From positions 32,727 to 96,726 of the forward strand of contig JAGWTZ010000005.1 in the NCBI GenBank assembly GCA_028868695.1: DNA of 64,000 nucleotides, written 5' to 3'. The position numbers and the translations under genes are program-made. The notes under the pieces are model-generated. The model ran no database searches and was not told the DNA's origin. It worked only from the letters and a program-made list of their open reading frames with translations. Within the stretch, counting starts at the first letter, position 1. Each line of letters opens with the position of its first letter. Below, piece by piece: positions 34,405 to 39,373 of the stretch. Source of the stretch: Alphaproteobacteria bacterium. Its GTDB lineage: Bacteria > Pseudomonadota > Alphaproteobacteria > Rhizobiales > Aestuariivirgaceae.

Positions 34405-36846
34405 ATGCACTTCCCCGTTGATGACATCGTCCCCGAGCTGAAAGCCGCGCTGGCGCAGAAATCTGCAGCCATCCTGGTGGCTGAGCCGGGTGCGGGCAAG
34501 ACCACGCGGGTGCCGCTGGCGCTTCTCGATGAGCCTTGGGCGGCGGGACAGAAAATCGTGATGCTGGAGCCGCGCCGCCTTGCCGCGCGCGCCGCCGCCA
34601 CGCGCATGGCGCAGACACTGGATGAAGAGGTAGGGCAGACTGTCGGCTATGCCGTGCGCATGGAGCGCAAGGTCTCCAAGGCCACGCGCATCGAAGTCGT
34701 CACCGAAGGCCTGCTCACCCGGCGTTTGCAGAATGATCCGGAACTGGCCGATACTGCGCTCATCATCTTCGATGAATTCCACGAGCGCAGCCTTGATGGC
34801 GATCTGGCGCTGGCCCTGGCGCTGGATGTGCAGCGCGGCCTGCGGCCTGATTTGAAAATCCTCGTCATGTCCGCCACCCTGGATGTGGAAGCCTTGCGCG
34901 CGCAATTGGGCGATGCGCCAGAGATCACCTCGCGCGGCCGCATGTTCCCGGTGGAAACACGCTATCTCGACAAGGCCACGCGGCAGACAATTGTGCAGGA
35001 TGCCACCAAGGCCGTGCTCAAGGCGGCGCGGGATGTGAAGGGCTCGCTTCTCGTCTTCCTGCCTGGCGAGAGTGAAATCCGCCGCGTGGCCAGTGAGCTG
35101 GAGAATGCCGCCCTGCCCGGCACCGCCATCCGCCCGCTTTATGGCGCGATGCCGCTGGCCGAGCAGGATGCCGCGATCAAGCCTTCACCGCCGGGCACGC
35201 GCAAGATCGTTTTGGCCACCACCATTGCCGAAACCTCGCTCACCATTGATGGCATCGAGGCCGTGGTGGACACTGGCCTCAAGCGCGCGCCGCGATTTGA
35301 TCCCGCCTCCGGCATGACCGGGCTGGAAACCGTGCGTGTCTCCGCCGCTTCCGCCGAACAGCGCAAGGGCCGCGCCGGCCGCTTGGGCCCCGGCTTCTGC
35401 TACCGCCTGTGGCCGGAAGAAGAGATGCGCGCGCTCAGCCCGCATGATGAGCCGGAAATCCGCATCGCGGATTTGTCCTCGCTGGTGCTGGAGCTTGCCG
35501 CCTGGGGCGTTGCCACGCGGGATGGTCTGCCCTTTGTGGAAATGCCGCCGGCCGGCGCCTTTGCCCAGGCGCAGGAATTGCTGCGCGAGCTTGAGGCGCT
35601 GGACGATGGCAACCGCATCACGCCGCATGGCAAGGCCATGGCGCGCCTGCCCTTGCATCCGCGCCTTGCCCATATGGTGATCAAGGCCAAGGCTTTGGGT
35701 GCGGGCACGCATGCCGCAGATATCGCCGCGCTGATTTCAGAACGTGACGGGTTGCCCCGCGATGCACCCATTGATGTCGAACAGCGCCTGATGTTTGTGC
35801 GTGGCAGCGCGCGCGACCGCATCCGCCAAACAGCAAGGCAGATCGCCAGCCTTGCCGCTTTGGGTGAGAGCCAGAGTGACGTTGGCGCCGGCATCATTCT
35901 CGCCCTCGCCTATCCGGACCGCATTGCGCAGAAACGCGGCGGCCTTGGGCGCTTCCGCATGGCCTCGGGTGCTGGTGCTGTGGTGGCCGGGCATGACGGC
36001 TTGGCCAAGAAGGACTTCATCGCCATTGCGCTGCTTGATGGCAGCGGCATGGAAGCCCGCGTGCAGCTTGCGGCCGAACTTTCCGAAGGCGAGATCGAGA
36101 AGCACTTTGCCCATCTCATCACCACCAAGGCCGATGTGTTCTGGGATGCCAAGGCCAATGCTGTCTCTGCCGCGGAAGTGAAGAAGCTGGGCGCGCTGGT
36201 GCTGGCCGAGCGGCCGCTCGCCGATGTGCCGCCGGAAAGGATTTCCGAAGCCATGCTGCAAGGTTTGGCGCAGCTTGGCCTCGGCGCGCTGCCGTGGAGC
36301 GATGCCGCGCAGATGTTCCGTTCACGGATCAATTTCCTGCACCGCGTCATGCCGGAGGCAGGCTTTCCCGATCTGTCGGATGAGGCGCTGATGGCCAGCA
36401 TGGGCGAATGGCTGCTGCCCTATCTCTCCGGCATCAGCCGCAAGAGCCATCTGGAGCGGCTGGACATGCTAGCCATCCTGCGCAGCCTGGTGCCGCATGA
36501 ACTGTCCTCGCGGATTGAAATGCTTGCGCCATCGCGCATGGAAGTGCCCGGCGGCGGGCACTACCAGATTGACTATACGGTGGAGGGAGACCCCACCTTG
36601 CGCGTGCGCCTGCAGGAAATGTTCGGCCTCACCTCCGCCCCGCAAATCGCCGATGGCCGGGCACGCCTCAAGATCGAACTGCTTTCGCCGGCTGGCCGCC
36701 CTGTGGCGGTGACGCAGTCGCTCGAAACATTCTGGGTGAACGCCTACCCTGATGTGCGCAAGGACCTTCGCGGGCGTTACCCCAAGCACTTCTGGCCCGA
36801 AGACCCGCTCACCGCCCAAGCCGTGGCCCCGAGGCGGCTGCGGTAG
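34405..36846 (+). CDS. hrpB: ATP-dependent helicase HrpB
   Basis: DEAH-box RNA helicase-like protein of 813 residues, full length. Motif I AEPGAGKTTRVPLALLD, Ia LEPRRLAARAAATRMA, II IIFDEFHERSLDGDLALAL (DEFH), III LVMSATLD, V TTIAETSLTIDGI and VI QRKGRAGRLGPG are all present, followed by the HA2 domain and the HrpB-specific C-terminal domain (MEVPGGGHYQIDYTVEGDP). Cellular role is poorly defined. It stands alone behind a RIME-like element. Confidence 0.95.
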   Translation: MHFPVDDIVPELKAALAQKSAAILVAEPGAGKTTRVPLALLDEPWAAGQKIVMLEPRRLAARAAATRMAQTLDEEVGQTVGYAVRMERKVSKATRIEVVTEGLLTRRLQNDPELADTALIIFDEFHERSLDGDLALALALDVQRGLRPDLKILVMSATLDVEALRAQLGDAPEITSRGRMFPVETRYLDKATRQTIVQDATKAVLKAARDVKGSLLVFLPGESEIRRVASELENAALPGTAIRPLYGAMPLAEQDAAIKPSPPGTRKIVLATTIAETSLTIDGIEAVVDTGLKRAPRFDPASGMTGLETVRVSAASAEQRKGRAGRLGPGFCYRLWPEEEMRALSPHDEPEIRIADLSSLVLELAAWGVATRDGLPFVEMPPAGAFAQAQELLRELEALDDGNRITPHGKAMARLPLHPRLAHMVIKAKALGAGTHAADIAALISERDGLPRDAPIDVEQRLMFVRGSARDRIRQTARQIASLAALGESQSDVGAGIILALAYPDRIAQKRGGLGRFRMASGAGAVVAGHDGLAKKDFIAIALLDGSGMEARVQLAAELSEGEIEKHFAHLITTKADVFWDAKANAVSAAEVKKLGALVLAERPLADVPPERISEAMLQGLAQLGLGALPWSDAAQMFRSRINFLHRVMPEAGFPDLSDEALMASMGEWLLPYLSGISRKSHLERLDMLAILRSLVPHELSSRIEMLAPSRMEVPGGGHYQIDYTVEGDPTLRVRLQEMFGLTSAPQIADGRARLKIELLSPAGRPVAVTQSLETFWVNAYPDVRKDLRGRYPKHFWPEDPLTAQAVAPRRLR

Positions 36847-37112: not shown

Positions 37113-37186
37113 ACACGGAATCCCGCTTGGCCGCAGGCTCCGCACCCGGCCCAAGCTGGGCCCCTGCTTTCGCAGGGGTGACGGAG
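37113..37186 (+). repeat. Left inverted repeat flanking the structured RNA locus
   Basis: Ends with agctgggcccctgctttcgcaggggtgacggag. Its complement recurs at 37694-37727 with about two mismatches over 34 bp, and weaker similarity continues outward (caagcgggattccg). The two copies face each other around the structured element. Confidence 0.82.
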
Positions 37187-37210
37187 TGTGTGAGAGGGAC
37201 AGAGAATTAA

Positions 37211-37239
37211 CTTGCTTTTATTCCTAGGATGTGCTAGCT
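37211..37239 (+). promoter_or_regulatory. Candidate promoter of the structured RNA
   Basis: CTTGCT (37211-37216) and CTAGCT (37234-37239) spaced by 17 bp resemble the alphaproteobacterial CTTGAC/CTATAT consensus. Transcription would start near 37246, at the base of the first long hairpin. No protein gene follows at a normal distance. Confidence 0.5.
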
Positions 37240-37240
37240 G

Positions 37241-37620
37241 CCTTCCGCTCCCTCGCACTGGGGTCCGGTTCATGACGGTGAACCCGGATGCGAGGGAGTG
37301 GCAGGCCTGCTGGAAGGGATAACGTATCCCATCTCCACCGGGAGCCAGGTTTGAACTTCCTCGGGCACTAAGACCCGGGCTGCTATGGCAAGGCCTCTGG
37401 TGTCCCCCATCAGGCTTCCCCCATGTGGGAAGTGAGATGGATCACCTCGGGTGGAGGGAATCTCCCATCAAGATGGGAGAAACCCGGTGAAACCCCAGAC
37501 CCATAGGGGCGGACTGACAGTTCACCTGATGCTCAATTCCTGCCGGCGCGTGGGGCAACCCAACGCATCAGTAATGCGACTCTAAACACAGTCGCACCCG
37601 CGTGAGTTACCCCACGCGTC
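37241..37620 (+). ncRNA. Unidentified large structured RNA element (about 380 nt)
   Basis: Dense pairing: CCTTCC 37241-37246 with GGAAGG 37312-37317; GCTCCCTCGCA 37247-37257 with TGCGAGGGAGT 37289-37299; inner GGTTC/GAACC; CACCGGG 37336-37342 with CCCGGTG 37483-37489 (long range); CTTCCC/GGGAAG 37415-37432; TCTCCCAT-CAAG-ATGGGAGA 37461-37480; CCCC/GGGG 37493-37509; CGCGTGGGG 37547-37555 with CCCCACGCG 37610-37618 enclosing CGCAT/ATGCG and GACT/AGTC hairpins. There is no long ORF on either strand. I do not recognise it: motifs of RNase P, tmRNA, SRP RNA, 6S RNA and cobalamin riboswitches were not found. The strand is set by the candidate promoter only and could be wrong. Confidence 0.6.
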
Positions 37621-37693
37621 TCCCTTCTACCTTCTGCCCCGCACGCCACGGGGCAACCAAGGGCGAAGCCATGACCAAATCCAACTCACCCAC

Positions 37694-37774
37694 CTCCGTC
37701 ACCCCTGCGAAGGCAGGGGCCCAGCTAGGCCGCAGGCTCTGCGCTCTCCGCGCCCAGACCAAGCGGGATTCCGG
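37694..37774 (-). repeat. Right inverted repeat flanking the structured RNA locus
   Basis: Begins ctccgtcacccctgcgaaggcaggggcccagct, the complement of the left copy ending at 37186. The encoded nonsense peptide TPAKAGAQ in the ORF track is a translation of this palindrome, not a gene. Downstream (37774-37925) further cgtcattccgg-type pieces follow up to the sdaA 3' end. Confidence 0.82.
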
Positions 37775-38005: not shown

Positions 38006-39373
38006 TCAGCACTCCACCACATTGACGGCGAGGCCGCCTTGCGAGGTTTCCTTGTAGCGCTCGCTCATGTCCACGCCGGTCTGGCGCATGGTCTCGATGC
38101 AGCCATCCAGCGGCACCACATGCTTGCCATCGCCGCGCAGCGCCAGCGAGGCAGCGGTGACGGCCTTCACCGCGCCAAAGGCATTGCGCTCGATGCAGGG
38201 CACCTGCACGAGGCCGCCCACCGGGTCGCAGGTCATGCCCAAATGATGCTCCAGCGCGATCTCGGCGGCGTTCTCCACTTGCGCATTGTTGCCGCCCAGT
38301 GCCGCGCACAGGCCCGCCGCCGCCATGGCCGAAGCCGAGCCCACTTCGCCCTGGCAGCCCACTTCGGCGCCGGAGATCGAGGCATTGTGCTTGATGATGC
38401 CGCCGATGGCCGCCGCCGCCAGCAGGAAGCTGCGCACGCCTGCGCGGTCTGCGCCGACGCAATGGTCGAGATAGTAGCGGATGACGGCAGGCACCACGCC
38501 GGCCGCGCCATTGGTGGGCGCAGTGACAATCTTGCCGCCAGCCGCATTCTCCTCATTCACGGCCATGGCATAGACCGAGAGATAATCCATCACCTGATGC
38601 GGATAGACCATGTTGGAGCCGTGCTCGGCCTTGAGCTGGGCCAGCACATCGGCGGCGCGGCGCTTCACCTTCAGGCCGCCGGGCAGCGTGCCCCTCTGGC
38701 GCAGGCCCCGGTTGATGCAGGCTTCCATCACGCCCCAGATGCGGTCAAGATTGGCGTTGAGCGCCTCGTCACTTTGCGCCACCGTCTCGTTGGCGCGCTT
38801 CATCTCGGTGATCGACAGACCCGAGGCCTCGCCCATCTGCAACATGCTGGCGGCATTGTTGAAAGGATAAGGCACGGCCAGCATCGCCGGCTTCTCGCGC
38901 AGGCTGGCCTCGCGCTCGGCCGCCGTCTGCACAAAGCCGCCGCCGATGGAATAATAGGTCTCGGAGAAAAGCTCCGCGCCCTCTGCATCCAGCAGGCGCA
39001 TCACCATGCCATTGGCGTGGCCCTTGAGGGCGGGGCCGAAATCGAAAACCACATCCGTGGCGGCATTGAAGGCGATGCGGCGCTGGCCCAGGTCTACCGA
39101 GGTCATGCCCGCAAGCAGGCCATCGACAGCGTCGGGATCCAGCGTGTCCGGCGTTTGGCCGGCGAGGCCAAGAATCACTGCCCTGTCCGTGCCGTGGCCC
39201 TTGCCGGTGAAGGCAAGAGAGCCATGCAATGTGGTGACGAGGCGCTGCGCCCTGGCCTTGTGGGCGGGCGTCAATGCCGCAAGGAAGCGGCCAGCCGCCA
39301 CCATCGGCCCCATGGTGTGCGAGGAGGACGGGCCAACACCAATCTTGAAAACGTCAAAGACAGAAAGGAACAT
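38006..39373 (-). CDS. sdaA: L-serine ammonia-lyase (iron-sulfur type, single chain)
   Basis: Deaminates L-serine to pyruvate and ammonia. 455 residues, both domains in one chain. The beta domain has [16 protein letters not shown] at the N-terminus; the alpha domain has [31 protein letters not shown] and [18 protein letters not shown], which carry the cysteines of the 4Fe-4S cluster. Serine hydroxymethylation products from one-carbon metabolism could feed it, but no operon partner is present. Confidence 0.95.

Follow-up and report, generated by a model that had tools for sequence, protein, structure and literature searches.

We describe a family of structured RNA genes, previously undescribed, one member of which lies in the window (the whole 64,000-nt stretch of an Alphaproteobacteria contig that was analysed, to which all coordinates refer; Table 1). 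The genes are about 400 nt long, bear a promoter candidate and are dispersed, and we lean, with slightly better than an even chance, towards the reading that they form the fixed edge of hotspots of defence gene exchange, where they would serve as recombination anchors. The preliminary description of this DNA had proposed a large structured RNA gene without a recognisable family, which is supported by negative Rfam searches and strong covariation. It had missed that the element is present about 18 times in its own genome, as a dispersed, mosaic and multicopy family with defence cargo upstream of many copies.

The dense set of helices reported at this site was recovered. The segment 37236–37632 folds with a minimum free energy of −186.7 kcal/mol (z −5.5), and the segment 37242–37667 reaches −200.6 kcal/mol (z −6.2); in both cases, 0 of 100 shuffled sequences was as low. 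Of the extent originally proposed, 37201–37640, the start holds, with homology between the copies beginning at approximately 37202, while the end falls short, as homology continues to approximately 37675. Comparison of the copies adds beyond the earlier end a terminal hairpin (37635–37655) and a conserved AAGGGCGAAGC-[A/G]TG end. The CTTGCT-N17-CTAGCT promoter candidate noted in front of the locus is found at 37211–37239 and is kept in nearly all copies of the same genome; relatives carry a better −35 box, CTTGAC, at the place of CTTGCT. The pairing CGCGTGGGG/CCCCACGCG was also correctly recognised as the closing helix of the 3´ domain (37546–37618), which is replaced by the GCGGGCGCTGC/GCAGCGCCCGC types in relatives. 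This domain was read by eye and the computed pairs were left unused, because the RNAalifold structure was poor and the closing stem was misregistered by MAFFT. As had been stated, the element contains no convincing reading frame of its own, and sdaA converges on it; the downstream genes vary between the copies and often converge.

Table 1. Features of the RNA locus and its surroundings in the window.
Feature	Position	Strand	Basis or composition
Upstream neighbour, 813-residue HrpB-type helicase	34405–36846		
Palindromic intergenic repeat left of the RNA	37151–37194	.	inverted copy of 37685–37729, 91% identity, blastn
Promoter candidate	37211–37239	+	−35 CTTGCT 37211–37216; 17-nt spacer with TTCCTA; −10 CTAGCT 37234–37239
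Structured RNA body, ~420 nt	37242–37660	+	fold z −6.2, covariation, homologous copies
Hairpin H1, conserved GACGG loop	37245–37301	+	copy comparison, covariation
Long-range helix P2, 5´ strand GGCAGG	37300–37305	+	partner 37539–37544
Hairpin H2, GGGATAACGTATCCC type	37312–37336	+	three covarying types within one genome
Hairpin H3, conserved loop CACTA[A/C]GA	37360–37379	+	6/6 pairs covary, 100% of cells paired
Variable-region hairpin	37405–37441	+	sequence and fold
Variable hairpin, other hairpins in its place in other copies	37462–37479	+	copy comparison
Long-range helix P2, 3´ strand CCTGCC	37539–37544	+	hand-read pairing, minimum-energy fold
3´ domain: closing helix CGCGTGGGG/CCCCACGCG, inner ACGC/GCGT, hairpin GCGACT/AGTCGC	37546–37618	+	
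Terminal hairpin GCCCC...GGGGC	37635–37655	+	copy comparison, fold
Conserved 3´ edge AAGGGCGAAGCCATG, Shine-Dalgarno-like and start-like codon	37659–37673	+	copy comparison
Palindromic intergenic repeat right of the RNA	37685–37729	.	also after the RNA in several other copies
Downstream neighbour sdaA, converging	38006–39373		

The arms of hairpin H1 occur in two types among the copies, with both arms switching together, and the terminal hairpin takes the form GGTTTCG...CGAAGCC in other copies. CATCAGG (37408–37414) could alternatively pair with CCTGATG (37525–37531), which is the 7-bp long-range pairing reported earlier. Past the 3´ edge the copies diverge within a few bases and share no reading frame. 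The window copy of the RNA lies between inverted palindromic repeats, as do several further copies of its genome.

In an alignment of 20 diverse copies, 26 of 32 pairs show compensatory changes on both sides, and 87% of the paired cells can pair compared with 70% after shuffling. The covariation score is 0.583, whereas shuffled controls score 0.270 ± 0.017 (0 of 500 shuffles reach the observed value) and partners slid by 1–3 columns score at most 0.226; the null formed by these shuffled and slid controls is not tree-aware. Helix P2 is paired in 141 of 144 cells from 24 sequences, a count that is biased towards pairing since the hexamers were picked by hand from their context. Its covarying types are GGCAGG/CCTGCC, GCGGCG/CGCCGC, CGCAGG/CCTGTG and GCAGCG/CGCTGC, and the helix is also present in the unconstrained minimum-energy fold of the window copy. 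On the plus strand, G-U cells outnumber A-C cells by 121 to 30, which is expected if this strand acts as RNA, with the caveat that structure prediction itself allows G-U. Covariation beyond both kinds of control strongly supports a structured RNA gene, and the compensatory changes between copies indicate that the fold is under selection.

No described RNA family that fits the element was found. Rfam 15 at the gathering threshold returned no match for the window or for 20 loci of other genera, and at a relaxed E-value the element region and 18 loci of the genus gave only below-cut-off chance matches to microRNA precursors or matches outside the element. The same window and loci do not match the Rfam models of GOLLD, ROOL and OLE, which are large ornate bacterial RNAs of unresolved function. 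The present RNA shares with them a length of several hundred nucleotides, many helices and long-range pairs, conserved loops and the lack of coding capacity; unlike them, it is chromosomal in the collections searched, reaches approximately 19 copies per genome, is nearly restricted to Hyphomicrobiales and adjoins defence cargo. The HEARO or IscB-IsrB omega RNA resembles it in being a structured RNA present in multiple copies, some of which stand alone, and in its Shine-Dalgarno-like 3´ edge. In contrast to omega RNA, the present RNA has its own predicted promoter and no common reading frame after the 3´ edge, and the HEARO model (RF02033) has no match in the window, the 18 genus loci or the 20 other loci. 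RRXRR (PF14239) had no match in 37 genomes of the genus in a search whose controls were equally silent. A retron or DRT noncoding RNA was rejected, since reverse transcriptases (DRT6, retron type VI and Drt9) belong to the cargo of just a few loci.

To our knowledge, no RNA family is known to form the wall of many defence hotspots. A literature search found no account of this one, which is weak evidence from the open literature only. The novelty lies in a repeated structured RNA family as a hotspot wall, both large ornate RNAs and core defence hotspots being known already. Two reports on Pseudomonas and E. coli describe core defence hotspots in which anti-phage systems are rapidly exchanged beside a fixed core flank (PMC10250203, PMC10121019). 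Compared with those hotspots, the ones described here differ in that one wall is a repeated structured RNA gene, which marks several hotspots per genome. REP-type palindromic repeats, termed 'mobile/repeat sequence candidates', are likewise dispersed, intergenic and capable of folding (PMC11109978); the RNA gene differs from them in being much longer and in having one defined strand, a promoter candidate, invariant loops and a long-range covarying helix.

A DNA search matched the element at 18 places of the genome of the window (genus Aestuariivirga). Eight matches are nearly complete, and many of the shorter ones break off where a contig ends, as is usual for repeats in draft assemblies. When named genomes were scanned with a pattern, relatives were detected in Aestuariivirga litoralis and in Hyphomicrobiales MAGs; scattered matches in unrelated taxa are probably due to chance. 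Covariance model R1, which covers the 5´ domain with 28 pairs, found copies in 32 of the 37 genomes of the genus, with approximately 18–19 copies in two of them (G000 and G005). Model R2, which was built from 20 diverse copies, matched 27 of 398 Hyphomicrobiales genomes, which belong to 14 of the 141 genera sampled and mostly contain several copies each, as well as 26 of 41 genomes of the genus g131. At the class level it gave one weak match beside the genome of the window among 289 genomes, and at the phylum level only this genome and one other Hyphomicrobiales genome among 299. The plasmid, phage and viral-contig collections contained no match for the queries used. Essentially all copies belong to Hyphomicrobiales, the order related to the rhizobia, and the rest of the phylum is almost free of them; in the collections searched, the family is chromosomal.

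Within the genome of the window, all six combinations of the two H1 types with the three H2 types are found, and most other pairs of helix types are also freely combined, which requires recombination between the copies. Copies that share a genome are mosaics built from interchangeable helices, and hence recombine. Copies are also gained and lost. The RNA lies upstream of lepA in 6 of the 30 Aestuariivirga species examined; at RNA-free sites, hrpB ends approximately 20–30 bp before the lepA promoter in at least four species, and two species keep only 3´ remnants of the RNA. The window copy also follows hrpB, and the lepA of its genome is located on another contig without the RNA. At two of 55 loci (L311 and L358), the full copy is directly preceded on its upstream side by the partial 5´ domain of a second RNA, possibly the scar of an earlier exchange. 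Occupied, empty and decayed sites all occur, but no target-site duplication was seen, no transposase or integrase consistently belongs to the loci, and an autonomous partner was not found. The arrangement of a composite transposon, with an RNA on either side of the cargo, was not seen.

Exchange of cargo is observed at the orthologous serC locus of the genus g131, where seven species contain seven different cargoes between serC and the RNA. The cargoes are 1.9–3.0 kb long and mutually non-homologous, and the left flank (serC) and the right flank (the RNA) are conserved. They consist of HEPN with GmrSD (NsnA-like) in G410, SIR2-STAND in G725, HTH-IrrE in G739, DUF2971 in G729, a D12 methylase in G751, DUF3800 in G350, and an unclassified 702-residue protein without a Pfam match in G736 (L309). 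A second hotspot adjoins uvrB in eight species, with DarTG as the cargo in G410. Further cargo found upstream of the RNA comprises AIPR/AbiU, DRT6, a retron type VI reverse transcriptase, a C5 methylase, Drt9, Lamassu genes and a dCTPase. One cargo is shared by G739 and G761, and in G761 it is approximately 1.1 kb away from the RNA. Non-homologous defence cargo between conserved flanks was seen at these g131 loci and not at the window copy. Unclassified AT-rich cargo also lies upstream of the RNA at L335, L341, L345, L371, L372 and other g131 loci; defence systems not yet described may be among this cargo, and the 702-residue protein of G736 may be one as well.

The cargo is AT-rich and one-sided. 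For 65 loci with both flanks available, the mean GC content is 0.583 in the 2.5 kb upstream and 0.629 in the 2 kb downstream, with lower values upstream at 46 loci (Wilcoxon p = 3.5e-6); loci from the same genome are not entirely independent of each other. A second set, collected afterwards from g131 specifically for this comparison, gives 0.591 upstream and 0.679 downstream (34 of 37 loci lower upstream, p = 1.6e-8); 18 of these loci are lower upstream by more than 0.08, and none is higher by that much. A fixed-rule test took, at 40 loci, the longest upstream and the longest downstream ORF lying within 1.95 kb; PADLOC matches (E ≤ 1e-8) were obtained for 8 upstream and 1 downstream ORFs (Fisher p = 0.029), a contrast that is weakened rather than created by the spurious frames that the longest-ORF rule takes on both sides. 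The sole downstream protein matches many helicase models. The window copy has no recognisable cargo and a GC content of 0.653 upstream and 0.655 downstream, and many other copies, including those of G408 that were examined, are likewise without recognisable cargo.

The explanation that we favour builds on the observed fold with its covariation, the copy number, the mosaics, the sites found empty or decayed, and cargo that lies on one side and contains defence genes. Copies would arise in intergenic regions not occupied before, decay at older sites and be homogenised by recombination with each other. The RNA gene would act as a fixed right-hand wall, and short AT-rich cargo, often anti-phage, would be replaced between a core gene and the promoter side of the RNA. 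As the likeliest mechanism, the repeated RNA gene would provide the shared homology that anchors recombination during cargo swapping, while the transcribed RNA would be retained by selection for a function of its own. We infer transcription, the anchor role and any function that the RNA may have in defence. Two observations favour an anchor, namely that at serC the RNA persists through changes of cargo and that the copies recombine. Against the favoured explanation, cargo modules also occur without an adjoining RNA border, as in G761, many copies bear no recognisable cargo, and neither a target-site duplication nor an autonomous partner nor cargo between two RNAs was found. The one-sidedness could result from selection that keeps the RNA and its downstream neighbour together. 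A stronger version, which we hold to be unlikely though worth entertaining, makes the RNA an active part of a new kind of system that captures or exchanges immunity genes, with the genes as landing pads and the transcript taking part in the insertion or control of the cargo.

The strongest rival to the anchor is a general cellular function with passive neighbours. The RNA would then have no part in defence and would work, for example, as a trans-acting regulator or a ribonucleoprotein scaffold, with insertion tolerated on its promoter side and the downstream linkage protected. The frequent cargo-free copies, in G408 and in the window, agree with this, the conserved promoters and loops point to a role of the RNA itself, and both edges of the serC hotspot are functional elements (the serC 5´ region and the RNA promoter). 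A general function alone nevertheless leaves unexplained why cargo is one-sided at many separate copies in several families and why presence is patchy (14 of 141 genera), and we grant it a limited chance. Closer to the cargo, the RNA could be a working part of the adjoining defence genes, namely a sensor or regulator of interchangeable effectors that is released or cleaved on phage attack. This is improbable in our view, as one RNA family would serve the mechanistically unrelated DarTG, SIR2, DRT, restriction-modification and AIPR, and many copies lack cargo, even though defence genes lie upstream at many loci, the conserved promoter is directed away from the cargo and relatives bear a possible operator, GGGGATA...TATCCCC. 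We are similarly doubtful that the RNA is the end of a transposon-like unit of cargo plus RNA that is moved in trans by an enzyme, in the manner of omega RNA/HEARO. Such a unit would agree with the dispersal of the copies, the sites found empty or decayed, the partial RNA in tandem at two hotspots and the sharp conserved 3´ edge AAGG...RTG. At serC, however, the RNA stays throughout the genus while the cargo changes, neither a consistent transposase or integrase nor a target duplication was seen, and the RRXRR protein was not found in the genus, although the controls were silent too.

Two further readings are far less probable than these. An untranscribed DNA repeat (a MITE or a REP-like palindrome cluster) that folds as single-stranded DNA would agree with an element that is repeated and flanked by palindromic intergenic repeats, and it is very improbable given the conserved promoter at a fixed distance, the invariant loops, the long-range helix P2 and the excess of G-U over A-C on one strand, even if prediction allows G-U. 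Least probable is a long leader or riboswitch, in which AAGG-N6-7-RTG, conserved at the 3´ edge, would be the Shine-Dalgarno sequence and start codon of the downstream gene. At two loci, lepA and one conserved gene do follow in the same direction. The frame after RTG is nevertheless unrelated between copies and usually short in every copy, and a coding reading of the edge was therefore rejected. A riboswitch or mRNA leader was likewise rejected, as no same-direction gene consistently follows and the downstream genes differ and often converge, as sdaA does in the window. Neither is there a common downstream gene, since lepA follows in six species only and the others are diverse.

How anti-phage systems are swapped in bacteria without visible recombinases is an open question, and a single RNA family whose copies mark many swap sites, in several families of bacteria, offers a handle on this exchange. 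The RNA may mark, or take part in, the exchange of immunity genes in these bacteria. A covariance model can locate the swap sites, their surroundings can reveal new defence systems, and deletion can probe the role of the RNA. The family would also add to the large structured RNAs a class that is absent from Rfam.

Several minor observations concern the copies outside the window. The promoter side is conserved across families as TTATCCCCGCCCTCCGAACCTCCC-N-TA (G350, G410, G408, G195 and G061; L214–L253). Some of the TTATCCCCGCCCTCCGAACCTCCC copies are preceded by GGGGATA and contain the resulting inverted repeat, for which the sequence suggests a possible operator or alternative promoter. IS1595-type transposase genes are located near three copies from three genera (G005:C84, G061:C27 and copy d of G408:C1). 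The genome of the window also contains a second, diverged subfamily of the RNA at G000:C43:11164, C44:3108, C65:7056 and C7:69524 (L156 and L162–L164). In some copies of this subfamily a palindrome-like ATATTCCTTgACAAGGAATAT extends over the −35 box, and the C44 copy has an AriA-like ATPase upstream.
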